A stretch of DNA of 64,000 bases. Origin: Halobaculum halobium. GTDB lineage: Archaea; Halobacteriota; Halobacteria; Halobacteriales; Haloferacaceae. A program made the position numbers and the translations under genes. Position 1 is the first letter of the stretch; the number at the start of each line of letters is the position of its first letter. Under the pieces are notes generated by a model. The model was not told where the DNA came from and did no database searches. It was given only the letters and a program-made list of their open reading frames with translations. Below, in pieces: positions 6,025-50,785 of the stretch. The stretch covers positions 1,426,001-1,490,000 of the forward strand of contig NZ_CP126158.1 of NCBI RefSeq assembly GCF_030127145.1, in the 5' to 3' direction.

Positions 6025-6132
6025 GTCCCGCGCTTGGCACCGCCGGCACTTATCCGGCCCGGTTGTCGTGTCAGCTGTCGGTGTCGCCCGCGACGCGAAC
6101 GCTTTTTCGCCGCCGAGTGAATCTACCGAGCC

Positions 6133-8438
6133 ATGCACACGGCCCCGGTTCACGTGGGGGTACTCGCGGCCGACGAGCGGAGCGCGGAGCGACGGACGGC
6201 GCACTCGGTCGCCGGGCGGGTCGCCGCGGCGGTCGAGTCGGTCTCGCTGTCCGCGGTCGCCGCCGGCGAGGTCGACCTCGACGCGTTCGACGCGCTGTGG
6301 TGGCACCGCGACGCCCCGTTCGACGACTGCGACGCCCCCGTCGCCGACGCGGGTCCCGCGGTCCGCGCGTACCTCGAGTCGGGGGCGGGCTCGTCCTCAG
6401 CGCGCGGGCGCTCCCCGCGGTGGCGGCGCTCGGTATCGACCGGATCGCGCCGGACGCGACCGGCGCGACCCACTCGGACGACGTCGCGGGTTACCGGGTC
6501 CGCGCGACCCACCGCGACCACCCGTTGTTCGAAGGGTTCGACGGTCCGGAGGCCGCCGGGCCGCCGCGGATCCCGCTGGTCGGACCGGGCGGGGAGGCGG
6601 CGTACGCCCGCTACGACGACCTGCTGCCCGCGACCGGCGACGTGCTCGCGTGCGCGACCCACGGTGGCCATGACATCTACCACGAGAAGTCCGTGATCGA
6701 GTGGCGCGTCGGCGACGGCGCCGTCCTCGGCCTCGGCGGGACCCTCCGGTTCGACGGCCCCGACGACGGCCGCGGCCACGAGCGCGAGCGCCTGCTTCGG
6801 AACGCGTTCGCGACGCTTGGGCGCGAGACCCTCCCGGCGTTCACCGGTCGCCCGTCGACGCCAGAGGGGTTCGCCGCCCTCCGCGAGCGCCTCGCCGACG
6901 ATCACCACCGGCCGGCGTACCACCTCTCGCCGCCGGCGAACTGGCTCAACGACCCGAACGGGCTGATCAAACACGGCGGCCGCTACCACGTCTTCTACCA
7001 GTACAACCCGGGCGGGCCATTCCACGACGCGATCCACTGGGGACACGCCGTCAGCGACGACCTCCTCCGCTGGGAGGACGAGTCCGTCGCGCTCGCGCCC
7101 GACCCTGACGGCCCCGACCGCGACGGCTGCTGGTCCGGCTGCACCGTCGTCGACACCGACGGCACGCCGACGCTGCTGTACACGGGCGGCCGCGGCCGCG
7201 ACCAGCTCCCCTGCCTGGCGACGACCGACGACCACGGCCTCCGGTCGTGGGAGAAACACGCCGGCAACCCCGTGATCGAGTCGGCGCCCGCGGGTTTGGA
7301 CGTGTACGAGACGGCCGACTGGGCCGCCGAGTTCCGCGACCACTGCGTCTGGCGCGAGAACGGCGTCTGGTACCACCTGATCGGGTCCGGCGTGGTCGGC
7401 GACGACGGCGACGACGCGCTCGACAACGCAGACGCGCTCGGCGGAGACGACGACCCCCGCGAGGGAGACGGCGCGGCGCTGCTGTACCGCGGCGAGAGCC
7501 TCGACGAGTGGGAGTACGTCGGCGTGTTCCACGCGGGCGAGGGCCCCCGCGGTGCGCCAGTCTGGGAGTGTCCCGAGGTGCTGACGTTCGAGGACGCCCG
7601 CCTGCTGCACGTCTCGGACGACGACCGCGTGGCGTACTACCTCGGCGAAACCGACCTCGGCGACCCCGCGGCGCCCGCCGGGAGCGACGCCGCCGCGCCC
7701 GACTTCGACGTGCGCGAGGCCGGGCTGCTCGACCACGGCGACTTCTACGCGCCGCAGTCGCTGTGGGACGAGGAACACGACCGCTATCTCACCTGGGGGT
7801 GGCTCCCCGAGACGCGCGACGCGAGCGCCCAGTGGGACGCCGGCTGGTCCGGCACGATGTCGCTCCCGCGGGTGATCGACACCGACGAGAGGGGTCGCCT
7901 GCGCCAACGACCCGCGTCGGAGCTGACCGCTCTCCGCGCGGATCACGTGCTGTCCGAGACGGTCGCGCTCGACTCGGAGGAGCGGCTGTTCGACGCCCGC
8001 GGCGGCGCCCTCGAACTCGACTGCACGCTCCGCCTCGGCGACGCCGACGCGGTCGGTCTCTCGGTGCTGGAGTCGCCCGCGGCGACCGAGCGGACCGTGA
8101 TCCGCTACGACGGCGAGACGGTGACCGTCGACCGCGGCGACGCCGGCGGCGGCGAGCGCGTGAACCGCGCGCCGCGCGGAATGCCCGTCGGCGACGTGGG
8201 GCCGGCGGGAGCGGGCGGCGGCGGTGGCGGCGCGGGCGACGCCGTGTCGCTGCGGGCGTTCGTCGACGGCTCGACGCTGGAACTGTTCGCGAACGAGCGC
8301 CGCTGCCTCACGACCCGGGTGTACCCGACCCGTGCGGACGCCGACCGCGTGTCGGCGTTCGCGGTCGGCGGCGACGCGGAGATCGCGGTCGACGCGTGGA
8401 CGATGGCAGGCACGTGGCCCACGTCGACCGGGCGGTAG
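6133..8438 (+). CDS. GH32 fructosidase with fused N-terminal glutamine-amidotransferase-like domain; frame broken by a probable 1-nt deletion near 6385
   Basis: Hydrolyses beta-fructosides (sucrose, levan or inulin oligomers). After restoring one G in the G5 run at 6381-6385 the protein is 768 residues. Residues 1-245 resemble a ThuA/DUF4960-like flavodoxin fold (YLES then [18 protein letters not shown]) ending with a [12 protein letters not shown] segment. The GH32 catalytic part begins at about 255: nucleophile Asp in NWLNDPNG (about 272), the transition-state motif as FRDHCVW (about 402, His replacing the usual Pro of RDP) and the acid/base Glu in WECPEVL (about 478). The C-terminal beta sandwich includes [15 protein letters not shown]. 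No signal peptide. Without the correction the frame shifts from codon phase 6133 to that of 6063. Converges on the GH68 gene 32 nt away. Confidence 0.85.
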
Positions 8439-10962: not shown

Positions 10963-11588
10963 TCACGCCCGAGGGTCCCGGTCCGGACCGGGGTAGTTCC
11001 CATCGCCGACCTCCGGATACAGCTTCTCGGCGTCGAACAGCGTCGCGAACGCCCGCGGCTCGCGAACGCTCACCGGGAAGCGGTCGTTGAGCCCCGCGCC
11101 CGCGCCGGGTGCGGTGAGCCGCTCGTCGAACGACAGCACGTGCATCGCGCCGCCGCGGAACGCCGACGCCAGCGCCGGGTGATCGCCGGGTGGCTGGACG
11201 ATCGGTTCGCGCCACTCGTCGACCCGCTCGCGCCAGTCTGTCGCGATCTCGGGGCAGCGAGATCGGCGATCACCGCCTCCGCATCGTCGAGAAGCGCGTC
11301 GCTGGCGACGAGCGTCGTCCACGAGTGGCGCCGGAGGCCGTCGAGCGCCTCGCGGGCGTCGCCGCCGACCAGCAGATCCGCCGCCAACGCGTCCGCGTCG
11401 GCGACGACGCGCGTCGGCGAGGGATCGTCGCTCGGCGGGTCGAGCGAGCGATCGTCGGCAACACGGTCGCCGGCACACTCGTCGCCGGCGGTCTCGCGAT
11501 CACGCCGCTCCGCGAGCGCCGACCGGATCGCCGCCTCGTCGACGCCGAACGCCTCCGCCCGCTCGAACAGCGCGGCCCACGTCTCCAT
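10963..11588 (-). CDS. Conserved haloarchaeal protein, PIN-like; frame broken by a probable 1-nt deletion near 11251
   Basis: About 208 residues once one G is restored in the G4 run at 11251-11254 (minus strand C4). The N-terminal part METWAALFERAEAFGVDEAA starts at ATG 11588. A segment VVADADALAADLLVGGDARE followed by LVASDALLDDAEAVIADLA looks like the start of a PIN-type nuclease fold with acidic residues, but this is inference. The second part (EIATDWRERVDEWREPIVQ, HPALASAFRGGAMHVLSFDE, FATLFDAEKLYPEVGDGNY) continues in the shifted frame. It starts 44 nt after the MOT1 permease stop on the same strand, so it may be the last gene of the tungstate/molybdate transcript. Confidence 0.6.
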
Positions 11589-11632
11589 ACCGGATCCGGC
11601 GCGCCGCGGGACAAAAAGCCGAGGCGTTTCCC

Positions 11633-23963: not shown

Positions 23964-24022
23964 CGCTCATTAGTAGACCGGGCACACGCAAAGACCTTTG
24001 GAAACGGGGGCTATCCCGTCCC

Positions 24023-37603: not shown

Positions 37604-38274
37604 GCGACGACACCCGCGACCATCCCCACGACGGCGAGAACGACGCGAACCGCGCGGCCGACGCGGCCGATGCGACCGACGCGACCGACGAGTGGACGAG
37701 CGACGAACCCGCCTTCGGCGACGGCCGCCGCCACGACTGGCCGGGCGAGCCCGACTGGCCTGTGCTGGAGACGGTCGTCGAGTACGAGACGGGGTGGCAG
37801 ACCGCCGGCTACGACCTCGTGGAACACCCCGACGGCTCGACGAAGAAGTACTACTGGTCGGAGTTGGCGACGGCGGTCGTCGTCGTCGCCCGCGCCGGCG
37901 ACGACCTCCTCGTGGTCGAGCAGTACCGGCCGACCGTCCGCAACACGCAACTGGAACTCCCCGCGGGAATCGTCGAGGCGGGCGAGTCGTACACCGAAGC
38001 CGGCCGGCGGGAGCTACGCGAGGAGACCGGCTTCGCGGCCGACTCCCTCTCGCTGCTGGGAGAGGTACAGTGCACGACCGGGCTGTTGCGCCACACCCGC
38101 GGGTTCGTCTTCGCGGAGGGACTGGAGCCAGTCGGCCAGGAGTTGGACGACAACGAGTACCTCGTCCCGCGGACCGTCCCCGTCGAGGAGGTAGTCGACG
38201 TGGTCCGCTCTCCTCCGACGAACGACGCGACCCTGGAGGGGATCCTGCTCGCCCGCGAGGAGGGGCTGCTGTAA
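37600..38274 (+). CDS. NUDIX hydrolase (ADP-ribose pyrophosphatase-like)
   Basis: 224 residues. The Nudix box reads GIVEAGESYTEAGRRELREE followed by TG, matching GX5EX7REUXEEXGU. The upstream QYRPTVRNTQLELPAGIVEA is typical of ADP-sugar pyrophosphatases. The first 50 residues are an Ala/Asp/Thr-rich haloarchaeal extension. Its GTG start overlaps the stop of the preceding gene. Confidence 0.85.
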   Translation: MSDDTRDHPHDGENDANRAADAADATDATDEWTSDEPAFGDGRRHDWPGEPDWPVLETVVEYETGWQTAGYDLVEHPDGSTKKYYWSELATAVVVVARAGDDLLVVEQYRPTVRNTQLELPAGIVEAGESYTEAGRRELREETGFAADSLSLLGEVQCTTGLLRHTRGFVFAEGLEPVGQELDDNEYLVPRTVPVEEVVDVVRSPPTNDATLEGILLAREEGLL

Positions 38275-38356
38275 CCGGAGCGCCCCCGATCGGTGGTCGC
38301 GTGCGGGAGTCGCCGACGGCGGAGCGCTTTTCACCGGGCGACGGCACCCCACGAGC

Positions 38357-38730
38357 ATGGACGGCGAAATCACCCCCGAAGAGGTCGAGCGGCTCCTCGC
38401 CGAAGGCGCGGACGTCCGCGTCGTCGACATCCGCTCGCCGGGGGCGTACGCGCGCGGCCACATCCCCGGCTCCGAGAACATCCCGTTCAACCAACTCCCG
38501 ACCCGGGTGGCGTCGCTGTCCGGGAGCGAACGCATCGTGACCGTGTGCCCGCACGGAGAATCGAGCGTCCAAGCGGCGCGACTCATCGCCTCCTTCGAGG
38601 GGACGACCGACGCGGTCGTCGAGAGCATGAAAAATGGGCTGACCGCCTGGGAGGGCGAACTCGAGGCCGGTGCCGCCGACGGCTCGGGCGATGCGGCCAC
38701 GGCCGACGACGGCCCCCAGTCACCCTTTGA
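38357..38730 (+). CDS. Rhodanese-like sulfurtransferase; stop lost by a probable 1-nt deletion near 38724
   Basis: One rhodanese domain of about 115 residues: start TPEEVERLLAEGADVRVVDI, GAYARGHIPGSENIPFNQL, active-site loop TVCPHGESSVQAARLI with Cys as the sulfur carrier, and the end GLTAWEGELE. As sequenced the frame runs on to 38920 through the antisense of the next gene. One extra C in the C3 run at 38723-38725 makes it stop at the TGA ending at 38730. The same base also gives the convergent metallopeptidase its stop. Confidence 0.8.
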
Positions 38731-40920
38731 GCGCGGGCCCGCCAGGGCCGCGAGCGATCCCGCGATCGCCAGCGCCGCCGCGGCCGCGCCGACGCCGAAC
38801 CCGGGAGTGGAGACGCCGCTGTCGCCGGGACCGTCGGTCGCTCCGCCGTCAGGATCGGTCGCGGCGGCGGCCGACTCGACGGTCAGCGACGCGCTCGCGT
38901 CGCCGACGGAGACGGTGTAGGTGCCCGGCTCGCCGATGCGGATCGGCACCCGGAGCGTCGCGGCGGCGTCGGGCGCGACCCTGGCCCGTTCGGTCGCGAC
39001 CGTTCGGCCGTCCACGCGGACGGCGAGGTCGCCGTCGGCGGGGACCCTTCCGTCAGCGACGACCGCAGCGGTCACCAGCACCGCGTCGCCCGCCGCGACC
39101 GTCGTCCGGTTCAGCGACACGCCCGCGACCGTCGGCGTCGGCGGCTCCTCGACGAACGCCTCGTAGGTGTGTCCGCGGACCGTCAGCGCGTACGTTCCCG
39201 ATTCGTTCGGCGTCCACGACAGCGGGACAGTCGCGTTCTCGCCCGCCGCGAGCGTCCCGTTCGCGACGGCGACCGTGCGGTCGTTGGCCGCGAGCGCGAC
39301 CCGGTAGCTCCCGTCGGCACCGCCGTCGTTCGAGAGCGAGACGGGGACCGTCAGCGTCTCGCCGAGGGCGATCCGGACGGGCGAATCGAGGCTCCCGTTT
39401 CGATACGGTCCGCCGACCGTGAGCCGCGCCGGCGCGTCGACGAGGATCCGCGCGACCGGGGTACCGAACGCCGCCTCGTGGTCCGCCGCCGACCACATCG
39501 CCGGTGCGGCGTCCGTCCGGACGACTCGCGCGGTCTCGTCGGCGACCGACTCGTCGCCGGCGTCGGCGACGATCGCGAGGAACCGATCGCCGGACACGGG
39601 ATCGGATTCGGCGTTCAGCCGCGCGAACACCGTCTCGAACGTCGCGGCGCCGTCGCTCGCCAGCCGGATCCGGCGGTCGGTGTCGCCTGCGACGAGCGCC
39701 CCCTTGCGGTACGGCGTGGCCGTCGTCCACGTGTTCGGGTCCGCGAGCACGTCGTCGCCGTAGGGCGCCGCCGCGCCGCGTTCGAGGTGGTCGGCGAACG
39801 CCGGGAAGTCGATCAGCCCCTGCTGCAGCGCGAGCCGGGCCGCGTAGTAGTCGGCCGACCCCTCGATCAGCCAGCGCGTCTCCGCGGTCGGCTCGAACGA
39901 CTGGCGCGTGTGGACGTACTCGTGGAGCCACGCGCTTCGCGCGTCTGCGAGCGGCTCGTCCGCGCGTACCCACGCGTCCGCGTCGCCCGTCTGCAGCCCG
40001 GCGACCGCCCAGTCGACGCCGGTCGGCGCGGCGACGACGAACACCGACTCGTCGCGGTCGCCGACGCGGAGCGAGTCGGACGCCGACGACAGTGAGTCGA
40101 GCAGCCGCTCGGGCGACGCCGCCATCGAATCGGCCGACTCCGCGGGGACGACGAGCCGGAACGTCTGGCCGTTGGCGGTTCGCTCGCGGACCGCGTGCTC
40201 GCCGAGGAACGCGACGCGCTCGCCGACGGCGCCCGGTCCCCCGGTGGTCGCCTCACGCGAGAGCCCCACGGTCTCGCCGCGATAGCGCCACGACACGCCC
40301 GTCCCGGGCACCGCCACGAGCGCCCACGGGCCGGGGTCGGCGAAGAGGTAGCCGCGGTCGGCGGCGGCGGGAGCGGTCGCCCCGCCGACGTTCGCGTCGA
40401 GTCGACGATGGCCGAGCCGTGCAGACGTCGTCGTCCGGTTGGCCGGGAGCCGATAGCGGATCGTCGGCGCGGTCGTCTCGCCGTCCCACTCGTAGGTGTC
40501 GCCGCCGGCGGCCGCGAAGCCGTCGGTCGTCACCGCCTCTGCCTCGGACGCGATCGTCGCCTCGACTGCGGTGACGCGGTCGGGGAGGCCGAACCGGAGC
40601 GTGACCGCGACTGACCCCGGCCTGTCGGGGGTGAGCGCGAGCGTCGTCGTGAGGTGGATGTCGTCGCCGGCGGTCGTCGCGGCGGCCGTCGAGGCGGCGG
40701 ACGCTCCTGCCGCCGTGGTGCCTCCGGTCGCTGCCCCCGGAGCGTCGCTTGTCGAGAAGTCGGGCGTGGCGTTCCTAGCAACCGTGGCGTCCGCGTCGAC
40801 CGCGTCACCAGTGTCAAGCAACTGTTCGGTCGACGACGACGGCGCGGCCGCGACCGCGGGCGCGGCGAGCGCCGAGAGCAGACAGACGACGACGAGCGCG
40901 GTGAGGCCTCGCTGCTGCAT
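38720..40920 (-). CDS. Exported HExxH metallopeptidase-like protein with PGF-CTERM-like anchor; stop lost by the same 1-nt deletion
   Basis: About 733 residues after the correction. Signal peptide at 1-25 (LTALVVVCLLSALAAPAVAA). A beta-rich domain at about 60-190 is followed by a gluzincin-like peptidase domain with HEYVHTRQ near 332 and the third ligand Glu 16 residues after the second His in WLIEGSADYYA. Two beta-sandwich modules (about 505-590 and 600-690) follow. The C-terminus has a Gly/Asp linker, STPGFGVGAAAAALAIAG and a basic end, the PGF-CTERM pattern for archaeosortase processing. As sequenced the frame runs without stop to 38014. The substrate is unknown. Confidence 0.8.
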
Positions 40921-41461: not shown

Positions 41462-43790
41462 TCAGGTCGGCTTGCCGGCGCCGCCAAGCCGGCGAAGGAC
41501 GGGGGCGTGCTGGCGGATCAGGTCGTCGACCGCCTCGACGGCACGCCGCGCCTCCGCCTCGTCGACGCCGCCGCCGTAGCGGGCGCGCTCGTGCGCCTCT
41601 GCGACGGCGTGGGCGCGCTCCCCGAACCGATCGCGAGAGAGCGCCTCGACGTACTGGCGCGGTGTCTCGCCCGGCCGGCGCGACCGGTAGACGATCGACG
41701 CGAGGTACTCCAGTCGCCGGAACGCCCGCTCGGCGTCCGTGTCCGGATCGGCGCTCGACTGGTGGAGCAGCCAGACCGCCCGCCGGATCCGCCGCGTCAG
41801 CCCGAAGCGGCGCGCGCCGGCGACGATGCCGACCGCGGCCGCGGCGCCGACGGCGACGTCCTCGCGGGTTGGGGTCCACCCTCGTCGCCGTCGCCGCCCG
41901 CACCGGATCCGCCGCCACCGGCAGGAGTCGCGTCTCCGGTGAGTCCCCCGGCGGCGGTGGCGATCGTCACGTTACCGAACTCGTCTGCGCCGGGGTTGAC
42001 CGCGCCGATATCGGGCGTCGACTCGCCGGGAGTCGACCCGGTGTCGGGCGTCGAGGTCGGCGTCTCGTAGCTCCCGTTCTCCGACCCGGCCGCGTCGACG
42101 TTGTCGGCGCCTTCCTCGCGGGCGGTCTCGACGCTGGCCTGTTCGGTGTCCTCACGCGGCCCCGACGGCGTCGGATCGAACTGGACCCAGCCGCGGTCGG
42201 GGAAGTACACCTCGACCCACGCGTGGGAGTCGAGGCCGCGGACGACCCACTCGTCCTCGCTCACGCGCTGCCCGGGCGTGTACCCGACGACGAACCGAGC
42301 GGGAACGCCCTGGGTGCGCAGCATGGTGACCATCGTCGTCGCGTAGTAGACGCAGTAGCCCGCGTCCATCTCGAACAGGAAGCTGTCGGCGGTGTTCCCC
42401 TGCGGGGCGGGCACGTCCAGCGAGTACTCCTTCGTCCGTTCGAGGTGGCGCTCGACGGCGACCGCGGCGTCGTAGGGGTTCGACGCGTCCGCCTGTTCGA
42501 GCACTGTCGCGGTGCGCTCGCCCACCCGGTCGGGTGTGCTCTCGGGGAGCTGGGTGTACCGCGAGCTGATCGTCGAGGGGTAGTCAGTCCCCGCGCGGCG
42601 AAGCTCCCCGCTCGTCGCGGTCGGTCGCTGGCTGACGACCGTGTACGTGTCATTCTCAAGCAGCGTCGTCCCCGGCTTGAGCCCCTCGTGGTCGGTCACC
42701 TGTGCGGTGTCCGCCGTGCGACCGCGCAGTTCGACCGGCTTCCACGCCGACGGCAGCGCGTCGAGTTGCCCGCGGGCGGTCACCTGCTGGACCAGTCGAT
42801 CGCTCTCGCCGGGCGGCCCGCCCAGCGATCCGGACGCGTACGGGGTCGTGTCGCCGGTCCTGACCCATCTTCCGCCGGTGTAGCGATCGTAGGATCCGAC
42901 GCGCCAGTACGCGGGCTCCTCGGCCTCGACCGTGAATCTGACCTCGGGCGACAGACGGATACTCCCGAGTACGCCGACGGAGTCGGTGTTCGCGACCAGG
43001 CTCGACTCGATAGTCGGTGAGTTGCTCCCGGGGACGACCGGATTCGCCGCGCTCCCGGGAACGACAGTGACGAGCGAGGTGACGACGACCATCGCCGCGA
43101 CCACGACCGCGAGCGTGTCCCACTGCGCCAGCACGCCCGTCCGGCCGGCGGCCGACAGTTCCGAGAGGCCGACCGCGAGCGTGAGTCCGACGGCGGCGGC
43201 GAGGGCGACGCCGACGCCCGCGTCACTGGTGAGGACGAAGAAGCCGGTCGTGGCCGCGCCGACCGTCGCCGCCGCGGCGTAGCGGCGGCGGACGAGGAGA
43301 TACGTCGCCAGGAACGTCGGCACCGGGACCAAGAATAGCGCCCACGCGCCGGCGTTGAGCAGCCGCAGCACCGACAGCCCCGTGACCAGCGCGAGCACGT
43401 CGCCGGCGACGCGACCGATGGTGAATAGCGCGCGCGCGGACGGCGGCACCGACAGGAAGTAGCCGATCAGCGCGAGCGCGAAGCCGGCGACCGTGAGGCC
43501 GACGGCGGTCCGCTCGCGGAGGAAGCCGCCGAGCCACGCCGCCGTCGCCGCGACGACCGCCACCTCCATGAGGAGGAACGTCGCGCCGCCGACGACGTCG
43601 ACGACGTGATAGAACACCGCGAGGAACGACGCGACGGCGAGGCCGACGCCCAGCGCCGCGGGGGCTCGAACTGCCGAGGCGGCCGAGAAGCGCTCGGTTC
43701 CGTCCCGTCGGTCGCCCTGCTGCCCGCCGCTGTCGCCGCCTGATCGACCCGATCCGAGCCCGCCGAACCGGTCGCCGACGGGGTGCTCAC
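41462..43790 (-). CDS. Transglutaminase-like membrane protein (DUF3488-TgpA/DUF4129); frame broken near 41871 and probably near 43700
   Basis: About 776 residues after correction. N-terminal five to six membrane helices are the DUF3488 region. The transglutaminase core follows: Cys in MDAGYCVYYATTMVTMLR, His in RGLDSHAWVEVYFPDRGWVQ, Asp in FDPTPSG. After the linker the frame changes at G4 (41871-41874): restoring one base reads TREDVAVGAAAAVGIVAGAR, then RRLEYLASIVYRSRRPGETP and RYGGGVDEAEARRAVEAVDD, the DUF4129 C-terminus. The start is probably GTG 43790 (MSTPSATGSAGSD), whose frame joins the rest only after another missing base at about 43685-43715; GTG 43617 is the alternative. Last gene of a moxR-DUF58 operon. 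Confidence 0.8.
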
Positions 43791-46317: not shown

Positions 46318-49071
46318 ATGGTCACGGGAGCGCCGGCGACGATGCTCGACCGCCGCGAGGAGCTGACGCCGATGCTCGCGCAGTACGTCGACGTGGCCCG
46401 CCAGTACGACGACGCGATCGTGCTCTTTCGCGTCGGCGACTTCTACAAGGCGTTCTGCGAGGCCGCCGAGGAGGTGGCGCGCGTCTGCGAGCTCACGCGG
46501 ATCGAGCGCGAGGACTCCACCGGCACCTACACCGCCTGCGGCATCCCCGTCGACAACGCCCCGAAGTACCTGAAGCGCCTACTCGACGCCGAGTACCGCG
46601 TCGCCGTCGCCGACCAGGTCGAGGACCCCGAGGCGGCGTCCGGCCTGGTCGACCGCGCGGTCACCCAGGTGCTCACCCCGGGGACCGTCGTCGAGGAGGA
46701 ACTGCTCGCGGCGGGGTCGAACACCTACGTCGCCTGCGTGGCGAGCGACGCCGGGGGGACCGAGGCCTCGACCCGAACGGGGAGCGGAGCGACCCGTGAG
46801 GACGACACGGACCCCACCTACGGCGTCGCGCACGTCGACGTGTCGACCGGCGAGTGCGCCGTCACGGCCGGCGACCCCGCCGCCGTCGACGAGGAACTCT
46901 CGCGGATCGGCCCCGCCGAACTGCTCTGCGGCCCCGGAGTCGATCGCGCCGTCGTCGCCGGCGCCGACTGCATGGTCACCGAGCGCGACGCCGACGAGTT
47001 CGCGCCCGAGGCCGCCCGCGCGGTGCTCGACCGCTACGGCGACTCCGAGCGCTTCGACGCCGCCGAGCGTGTGGCCGCCGGCGCGCTGCTGTCGTACGCC
47101 GAGTACACGCAAGGCGACGACGGCCCCCTGGCGTACGTCCGGCGCGTCCGGCGATACGACCCCCGGCGCTCGCTGCGCCTCGACGCGACCGCGCTGCGCG
47201 GGCTGGAGCTGTTCGAGAACCACGTCGGCTCCGGCCGGACGCTGTTCGACACGATCGACGAGACGCGCTCGGCGCTCGGGCGGCGCCGGCTGCGCGCGTG
47301 GCTTCGGCGACCGCTCGTCGACGCCGACGCGATCCGCGCCCGCCACGACGCGGTCGCGGCGTTCGCCGAGCGGACGCTCGTCCGCGAGGACGTGCGCGAG
47401 GCGCTCTCGGCGGCGTACGACCTCGAACGGCTCGCCGGCCGGATCGCTCGGGGGCGCGCGAACGCGCGCGATCTCCGGTCGCTCCACGACACGCTCGTGG
47501 CGGTTCCGGAGATCCGAGAGGCGATTTCGGGCGTAGGAGCCCTCGCGGGCGTTCGCGGGGAGCTGGACGCCCTCGACGATCTCCGCGGGCTCATCGACGA
47601 CGCGGTCGTCGAGGAGCCACCCCAGGAGATCACCGAAGGCGGCGTGATCCGCGCCGGCTACGACGACGAACTCGACGAGATCCGGACGACCGCCCGCGAG
47701 GGGCGCGAGTGGATCGCAGATCTGCAGGCGAGCGAACGCGAGCGCACCGACATCGACACCCTGGAGGTGGGGTACACCCAGGTCCACGGCTACTACATCG
47801 AGGTGACGAACGGGCAACTCGAGAAGGTGCCAGACGACTACACCCGTCGCCAGACGCTGAAGAACTCCGAGCGCTTCTACACGCCCGAGCTGAAGCGTCG
47901 CGAGGATGAGATCCTCGGCGCCGAGGAGCGCGCTGACGCCCTGGAGTACGAGCTGTTCTGCGATCTCCGCGACCGGGTCGCCGACGAGTCCGACCGGATC
48001 GGCGCGCTCGCGGACGCGCTCGCCCGCGTCGACGCGCTCGCCGCGCTGGCGACCGTCGCCGTCGATCGCGACTACGTCCGACCCGAGCTGGTGGACGACG
48101 CGGAGACTACGGAGGGTGACGCCGGTGCCGGCGACCGCGTCGGCGACGAGGTCGGCCTCGGCCTGAAGCGCTCCCGCCACCCCGTCGTCGAGGAGACCGC
48201 CAACGAGTTCGTCCCGAACGACGCCGCCTTCCCGCGCGGGACGGTCGCGCTGATCACCGGCCCGAACATGAGCGGGAAGTCGACGTACATGCGCCAGGTT
48301 GCGCTCGCGGTCGTCCTCGCGCAGGCCGGCTCGTTCGTGCCCGCCGAGTCGGCCCGCATTCCCGTCGTCGACCGGGTGTTCACCCGCGTGGGCGCCAGCG
48401 ACGACATCGCCGGCGGCGAATCGACGTTCATGCGCGAGATGCGCGAGCTGACCGACGTGCTCCACGACGCGACCGGCGACTCGCTGGTCCTGCTCGATGA
48501 GGTCGGGCGCGGCACGTCGACGACGGACGGCCGGGCCATCGCCCGCGCGGCCGTCGAGTTCCTCCACGACGAAACCGGCGCGACAACGCTGTTCGCGACC
48601 CACTACCACGAACTCACGGATCTCGCGAGCGAGTGCGAGCGCGTGGTGAACCGCCACTTCGCGGCGACCGAGCGCGACGGCGAGGTGACGTTCCTCCACC
48701 GGATCCGCGAGGGCGCCGCCTCCTCGTCGTACGGCGTCGAAGTCGCGGAGCTGGCGGGCGTCCCCGAGTCGGTCGTCGCCCGGGCGCACGGTCTCGTCGC
48801 CGCCGACCGCGACGGAGCCGGTGAGTCCCCGCCGACTCCCGCCGGTGACGACGCCCAACGGACGCTCGACGAGGTGGCGACGAACGGGCGCGATCCAGAC
48901 GGCGAGGGGGACGCCGAACTGCCCGGCGTCCGCGGGGACGCGGTCGCCGACCTCCTCGCGGCCCTCCGGGACCTCCAGCTTGCGGAGACGACGCCGCTTG
49001 AGGCGCTGAATCACCTCCACGACCTCCAGCGTCGAGCGGAGGACGCCGCCGACGCGGGTGAGCGACCGTGA
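46318..49071 (+). CDS. mutS: DNA mismatch repair protein MutS
   Basis: 917 residues. Recognises mismatches and, with MutL, starts repair. Domain I starts MLAQYVDVARQYDDAIVLFR, with the mismatch motif F-x-E seen as GDFYKAFCE, i.e. Lys in place of Glu. The lever/clamp and the ATPase follow: Walker A ITGPNMSGKSTYMRQ, then DDIAGGESTFMREM, Walker B LVLLDEVGRGTSTTDG, and the HYHEL motif (FATHYHELTDL). ATG 46318 is chosen; ATG 46342 is an alternative. TGA overlaps the mutL GTG by 4 nt, so the two are coupled. Confidence 0.93.
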   Translation: MVTGAPATMLDRREELTPMLAQYVDVARQYDDAIVLFRVGDFYKAFCEAAEEVARVCELTRIEREDSTGTYTACGIPVDNAPKYLKRLLDAEYRVAVADQVEDPEAASGLVDRAVTQVLTPGTVVEEELLAAGSNTYVACVASDAGGTEASTRTGSGATREDDTDPTYGVAHVDVSTGECAVTAGDPAAVDEELSRIGPAELLCGPGVDRAVVAGADCMVTERDADEFAPEAARAVLDRYGDSERFDAAERVAAGALLSYAEYTQGDDGPLAYVRRVRRYDPRRSLRLDATALRGLELFENHVGSGRTLFDTIDETRSALGRRRLRAWLRRPLVDADAIRARHDAVAAFAERTLVREDVREALSAAYDLERLAGRIARGRANARDLRSLHDTLVAVPEIREAISGVGALAGVRGELDALDDLRGLIDDAVVEEPPQEITEGGVIRAGYDDELDEIRTTAREGREWIADLQASERERTDIDTLEVGYTQVHGYYIEVTNGQLEKVPDDYTRRQTLKNSERFYTPELKRREDEILGAEERADALEYELFCDLRDRVADESDRIGALADALARVDALAALATVAVDRDYVRPELVDDAETTEGDAGAGDRVGDEVGLGLKRSRHPVVEETANEFVPNDAAFPRGTVALITGPNMSGKSTYMRQVALAVVLAQAGSFVPAESARIPVVDRVFTRVGASDDIAGGESTFMREMRELTDVLHDATGDSLVLLDEVGRGTSTTDGRAIARAAVEFLHDETGATTLFATHYHELTDLASECERVVNRHFAATERDGEVTFLHRIREGAASSSYGVEVAELAGVPESVVARAHGLVAADRDGAGESPPTPAGDDAQRTLDEVATNGRDPDGEGDAELPGVRGDAVADLLAALRDLQLAETTPLEALNHLHDLQRRAEDAADAGERP

Positions 49072-50785
49072 GCGGCGGGTCGTCCGGCGGCGAGATCAGG
49101 GCGCTCGACGAGGCGACCGTCGAGCGCATCGCCGCCGGCGAGGTGATCACCCGGCCAGCCCGCGTCGTCGCCGAGCTGGTGGAGAATGCCCTCGACGCCG
49201 GCGCCGACCGGATCGACGTGGCCGTCGACGGCGACGGCACCGACCGGATCCGCATCGCCGACGACGGGCGCGGGATGGCGCGCGCGGACGCCGTCCGCGC
49301 GGTCGAGCCGCACACGACCAGCAAGATCCGCGCCGCCGACGACCTCCGGGAGGCGACGACGATGGGCTTTCGCGGCGAGGCGCTCCACGCCGTCGCCGAC
49401 GCGGGCGACCTCGAACTCGTGACCAGCGACGGCTCCGCCGTCGGGACGCGCGTGACGGTGGCCGACGGTGAGACGACCGTCGAGGACGCCGGGCGAGCGC
49501 GCGGCACCACCGTCGTGGTGACCGATCTGTTCGGGGACCGACCCGCGCGCGGCGAGTCGCTCGCCTCGCCCGCGCGTGAGTTCGGCCGGATCTCCGAGCT
49601 GGTCACCGCCTACGCGCTGGCCCGGCCCGAGGTGGCGTTCTCGCTCGCGCACGACGGCCGCGAGACCGCGTCGACGCCCGGCACCGGCGACCGGGACGCG
49701 CTCGTCGCGCTGTACGGCCGTGAGACGGGCGGCGAGTCGACGGCGTTCACCCACCGCGTCGGCGTCGACCTCGCCGAGCGGGCGGCCGACCTCGCGGTCG
49801 AGGGTCGGCTCTGTTACCCCTCGACGACGCGCTCGACGCGCGACCACGTCCACGTCGCCGTGAACGGGCGGCCCGTGGACAACGAGCCCCTCCGTGCGGC
49901 AGTCGCGCGGGGGTACGGGAGCCTGCTCCCGAGCGGTCGCGAGCCCGTCGCCGCGGTCCGGATCGAGTTGCCCCCGTGGGCGGTCGACGCGAACGTCCAC
50001 CCGGCGAAGGCGCGGGTCGCGGTCCGCGGCGGCGACGCCGTCGCCGACGCGGTCGAGGCCGGCGTCAGAGAGGCGCTGACGACCGCCGACCTCCGCAGGT
50101 CGGGCGAGGTCGCGATGGACCTCGACTCGTCGCTGTCGGCCGTCGAGGGGGCCGACTCCGACTTCGCCGACGCGACGGTGCTCGGCGTGTTCCGCGACCT
50201 GTACGTCGTCTGCGAGTCGGGCGAGGACCTGCTCGTCGTGGACCAGCACGCCGCCCACGAGCGCGTGAACTTCGAGCGCCTGCGCAGTGCGCTCGCCGAG
50301 GAGGCAGTGCCGTCGGCCGAACTTGACCCCGCCGAGACCGTCACGCTCGACCCGCCGACCGCCGCCGCCGTCGAGGCCCACCGCGAGTCGCTGGCGGCGC
50401 TGGGCTTCTCGGTCGACCCGTTCGGCGGGACGACCTACCGCGTGACCGCGGTCCCGGCGCCGCTCGGGCGCGTCGCCGACGCGGGCGCGCTCCGTGGCGT
50501 CGCCGCCGACATCCGCGAGGCCGGCGGACGCGGGGGACACGGAGGAGGCAGGGGGCGGGACGGAGACGCGATCGCGGCGACCGTTCGCGAGGACCTGCTC
50601 GCGGACCTGGCGTGTCACCCGTCGCTGAAGGCGGGCGACGCGCTCGACCGGGGACGGCCGCGCGACTGGTCGAACGGCTCGGCGAGTGCGAACAGCCGTA
50701 CGCCTGCCCACACGGTCGACCGACGGTGCTGTCCATCGCAGACGAGACGCTGGCCGCCGGGTTCGAGCGCCACGGCTCGCGGTGA
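49068..50785 (+). CDS. mutL: DNA mismatch repair protein MutL; frame broken by a probable 1-nt deletion near 50651
   Basis: About 572 residues after correction. GHKL ATPase N-terminus: ELVENALDAGADRIDV (N box), IADDGRGMAR, HTTSKIRAADDL, GFRGEALHAVADAGDL. The dimerisation domain follows. Near 50650-50653 one G is missing; restoring it turns the C-terminus into LVERLGECEQPYACPHGRPT then VLSIADETLAAGFERHGSR with TGA at 50783-50785. As sequenced it continues to 50894 in a wrong frame. The QPYACPHGRP (zinc/endonuclease-site) element is the family signature. GTG 49068 overlaps mutS. Confidence 0.9.

Follow-up and report, generated by a model that had tools for sequence, protein, structure and literature searches.

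A single base probably missing from the record makes convergent rhodanese and HExxH-protein genes of a Halobaculum genome run through each other

Introduction

Residual errors in long-read assemblies are mostly homopolymer insertions and deletions that shift reading frames (PMC8011154), and deletions occur most often after runs of 4-5 bases (PMC12007338). PGF-CTERM proteins, which are sorted by archaeosortase A, end in a PGF motif, a hydrophobic span, basic residues and the stop. We analysed a locus with a similar end in a 64,000-nucleotide stretch of Halobaculum halobium (assembly GCF_030127145.1, contig NZ_CP126158.1), hereafter the window; a literature search found no paper describing this genome. 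Here, a rhodanese gene and the gene of an HExxH protein on the opposite strand converge and read far into each other. An earlier note on this DNA had attributed this to one missing base in a CCC triplet. Comparison with 10 other Halobaculum genomes (G001 to G010) showed that a base is indeed absent relative to these relatives and that both open reading frames (ORFs) are over-long. Judged from the sequence, the locus is most likely an ordinary convergent pair, in which a single-domain rhodanese gene faces that of a secreted HExxH protein with a PGF-CTERM-like tail, and the double over-run most likely an artefact, not a real feature.

Results

Two convergent ORFs cross each other

As read from the window, the rhodanese ORF on the plus strand begins with ATG at 38357 and stays open until 38920 (187 aa), and the opposite ORF on the minus strand begins with ATG at 40920 and stays open down to 38014 (968 aa). 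The stretch 38357-38920 is therefore open in both, as the earlier note had described. The rhodanese ORF carries a rhodanese-like domain (PF00581, E = 9e-16, 58.6 bits against a cut-off of 22.2). Adding one base between 38722 and 38728 creates a TGA on the minus strand (lowest base 38720) together with a TGA on the plus strand (ending at 38730). The coordinates of the two genes, their extensions and the related breaks described below are collected in Table 1.

Table 1 Features of the convergent locus and of similar breaks in the same genome
Feature	Position	Strand	Remarks
Single-domain rhodanese gene	38357..38730	+	PF00581; expected end DDGPQSPF-stop, TGA 38728-38730 with one base allowed for
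Presumed spurious tail on the rhodanese ORF, lying on the antisense strand of the peptidase C-terminus	38731..38920	+	Absent from relatives
Missing-base site	38723..38728	.	Relatives CCCTT(C)TGA, window CCCTTTGA; DNA alignment with G005, G009 and G006
Gene of the secreted HExxH peptidase-like protein (CARDB domain, PGF-CTERM-like tail)	38720..40920	-	Expected stop TGA (TCA on the plus strand) 38720-38722
Presumed spurious tail on the peptidase ORF, lying on the antisense strand of the rhodanese and of the gene preceding it	38014..38719	-	Absent from relatives
GH32 family gene (6121-8435), run of G	break 6381..6390 (~6384)	+	Deletion only in this genome
DUF7384 gene (10966-11627)	break 11247..11259 (~11253)	-	The halves hit neighbouring segments of PF24109
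Transglutaminase/TgpA_N gene (41465-43704)	break 41875..41885 (~41880)	-	GGGG to GGG; core cut from DUF4129 C-terminal domain
mutL (49068-50782)	break 50651..50654 (~50652)	+	One base lost before conserved CPHGRP (ACPHGRPT) tail, which continues intact in the next frame
Conserved gene outside the window, run of G	L087:2415-2427		One-base deletion only in this genome

The earlier note regarded two stops arising from the same base as strong evidence in itself, which overstates their weight. DNA as GC-rich as this (70%) often has long antiparallel ORFs. The window contains 273 pairs of overlapping antiparallel open stretches with 180 codons or more in each. For 13 of these pairs (4.8%), a single inserted base leaves an overlap of no more than 12 bp and so closes them as tightly as the pair studied here. 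We therefore rejected the double stop as sufficient proof; it is suggestive, not decisive, and the relatives decide.

The relatives share the expected gene ends

The rhodanese is present in all 10 genus mates (the named loci being those of H. gomorrense, H. litoreum and H. saliterrae), where it has 121-125 aa and invariably ends in QSPF-stop. Beyond the genus, the relatives read to the end stop almost always in PF, mostly as SPF or APF, and none of the rhodanese homologues read carries the window's extension. In six of the genus mates (G002, G003, G005, G006, G008 and G009) the two stops share a 12-bp overlap, TCA CCN TTC TGA, in which the peptidase TGA is the TCA of a rhodanese serine codon and the peptidase ends in RSEG or RSER. 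In G001, G004, G007 and G010 the two ends lie slightly apart, without overlapping. The comparison of homologous C-termini proposed in the earlier note thus confirmed its view that a base is missing, here relative to the ancestral gene pair; homologues keeping both long overlapping ORFs, which it had named as the refuting case, were sought and not found, and neither extension occurred in any relative genome examined.

The missing base is best placed after CCCTT

The window reads TCACCCTT-TGA and, in DNA alignment with G005, G006 and G009, shows a single gap at CCCTT-TGA. Among the loci compared, CAGTCACCCTTTGAGCGC was seen in the window's own genome only. Any base in CCCTTT that preserves both stops serves both frames. 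Either TTC TGA (a C lost after TT) or TTT TGA (TTTT reduced to TTT) gives the rhodanese end SPF; TTC TGA is the version of the close relatives and also gives the peptidase end RSEG, as in G002, G005, G006 and G009. Since relatives end in PF and never in SPL, the base, C or T, is best placed after CCCTT and not in CCC.

Two details of the earlier note are modified by this placement. One base does close both ORFs, with stops at 38720 and 38730, but the fourth C that it proposed was rejected, yielding SPL where relatives have PF. Similarly, the peptidase stop does fall right after the PGF-CTERM-like tail, although the proposed end RSKG is not supported, the relatives' ends being RSEG or RSER. A minus-one instead of a plus-one change was also considered; its tightest closure is 48 bp, away from both conserved ends.

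The opposite gene encodes a putative zinc peptidase with a PGF-CTERM-like tail

The HExxH protein contains a CARDB domain (E = 9e-7), and HEYVH together with WxxEGxAxYY is kept in 9 genus mates, i.e. those whose extracted protein spans the region. An HExxH motif with a conserved downstream glutamate (HEYVH..WxxEG) is the pattern of gluzincin-like zinc metallopeptidases, which suggests a zinc-peptidase-like protein and a corresponding activity. Searches against Pfam and NCBIfam gave no peptidase family, and the PDB gave no matching sequence. The protein, with HEYVH...WLIEGxADYY, CARDB and a PGF-CTERM-like tail, is conserved across Halobaculum and could possibly represent an undescribed gluzincin-like family.

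With the base allowed for, the tail has the PGF-CTERM layout (STPGFGVGAAAAALAIAGSLAALAGPRS followed by E or K and then G), which is the same in relatives. The window tail scored below the cut-offs of both PGF-CTERM models (PF18204, 10.9 bits against 18.8; TIGR04126, 8.4 against 24.5); the G003 orthologue likewise stayed under the TIGR04126 cut-off with 22.0 bits. An archaeosortase A homologue is encoded in the genome (TIGR04125, 331 bits, above cut-off). A further ~235 residues beyond a sorting tail would be abnormal.

Five similar deletions occur in the same genome

We then compared 224 kb of this genome (the window and its flanks) with the corresponding regions of G005, G006 and G009. A first frameshift screen was noisy, with stop-to-stop ORFs extending into intergenic DNA; it was superseded by a screen that demanded coding composition on both sides of a break, after which the DNA alignments were read. 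Six single-base coding deletions were private to this genome (6384, 11253, 38727, 41880, 50652 and L087:2415). No split coding gene was confirmed in the matching stretches of the three relatives, where the inspected candidate breaks were intergenic. All six events are deletions, each explainable as the contraction of a short run of identical bases; at 38727 and 50652 the loss of a non-run base (C and A, respectively) fits equally well. The frames downstream of the breaks are undecayed, as seen in the MutL tail, the DUF4129 half and the DUF7384 halves. A MutS-family gene, matching at ~48250, adjoins mutL and is intact.

Long runs are not systematically truncated in this genome, as runs of five G or C number 333 against 344-402 in the relatives (slightly rarer), and run contractions at exact-context sites showed no clear excess (3 shorter, 2 longer). 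Because long runs are barely depleted and contractions not clearly in excess, the error load would be modest to moderate; six events in 224 kb would correspond to some tens per megabase. Although the assembly is contiguous (3 contigs), its completeness is only 95.2%, whereas most of the contiguous genus mates reach 97-99%.

Separately, at 24006-24010, in a conserved stretch, this genome has a run of five G where three relatives have six. An enoyl-CoA hydratase gene begins at this run or just downstream of it.

Discussion

These comparisons make it most probable that the over-run stems from a residual error of sequencing or assembly, which dropped a base from the short runs CCC TTT, and that the cell has an ordinary overlapping pair; the loss would lie in the record and not in the cell. 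The organism would then carry a rhodanese gene and a gene for a secreted, anchored, PGF-CTERM-like HExxH protein, convergent and with a 3' overlap of 12 bp (TCA CCC TTC TGA). A base dropped between the two stop codons would shift both frames off both stops and, with both stops left behind, each gene would read on through the antisense strand of the other. The orthologues have the base, the QSPF stop being found in 10/10 and the DNA having been aligned with three; equally, the assembly has several such indels, six against none confirmed in the comparable genomes.

Could the deletion instead be a recent, real mutation private to this strain, which lengthened the rhodanese by a 63-residue tail and left ~235 residues behind the sorting tail of the peptidase? 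Slippage at the run CCCTTT is plausible, haloarchaeal spontaneous indels are biased towards deletions (PMC9997560) and a rhodanese could remain functional with an extended C-terminus. Losing the peptidase's anchoring end should nevertheless cost the cell, and the finding of five like deletions in the same 224 kb but no confirmed one in three relatives suggests that the cause lies in the assembly, which leaves a private mutation unlikely. Far less credible still is that the sequence is correct and the long overlapping ORFs genuine and functional, through antisense coding or programmed frameshifting. More than 500 bp are open in both frames, though long antiparallel ORF pairs as such abound in the window. 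We rejected real overlapping coding, as neither extension is kept by any homologue read: six relatives end within the common 12 bp and the others nearby, and each extension is merely the antisense of a conserved gene.

As mutL is among the broken genes, the trace of a mutator would resemble that of an error process, and the frameshifts might all be real. The strain would then be a natural mismatch-repair mutator in which mutL was broken before CPHGRP, taking away a strongly conserved tail, and run contractions followed later. Loss of MutL is expected to leave single-base run contractions, one of which would have made the two convergent gene ends run together. According to work cited in PMC9997560, Haloferax volcanii mutates at a higher rate once mutS/mutL are deleted, whereas Halobacterium salinarum lacking mutL or mutS was no mutator (PMC2816208). 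Together with the Halobacterium salinarum result, three observations make a mutator very improbable, and a mutator origin of the joined gene ends equally so: the six coding events are all deletions, whereas a mutator should yield insertions too; the MutS-family gene is intact; and the same error process accounts equally well for the mutL lesion. The undecayed mutL tail also argues against it, as do the run lengths at exact-context sites, where changes were not clearly in excess.

A deletion in the record thus remains our preferred reading, and it has a practical consequence. Automatic gene calling would yield two over-long proteins at this locus, one with ~235 artificial residues following its sorting tail. 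Changes of this kind also break the mutL, transglutaminase/DUF4129, GH32 and DUF7384 genes in this assembly; with like breaks in these four further genes of the window, apparent pseudogenes and fusions here should not be taken as biology from the assembled sequence alone.

The locus resembles known systems in three respects. By its deletion pattern it recalls the residual indels known from microbial genomes assembled from long reads (Homopolish, PMC8011154; Kastor, PMC12007338), with single-base deletions explainable as run contractions and frameshifts in conserved genes that are visible against relatives. It differs in that one event falls between overlapping convergent stops and breaks two gene ends. 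With the PGF-CTERM/archaeosortase A system (TIGR04126/PF18204, TIGR04125) the window protein shares TPGFG, a hydrophobic stretch and a basic end, and its genome has the archaeosortase A homologue, although the tail scores under the curated cut-offs. The locus also resembles the Halobaculum convergent pair with its 12-bp 3' overlap: genes, order, orientation and stops are the same in 6/10 genus mates, the ends being separated in the other four, and the window lacks one base.
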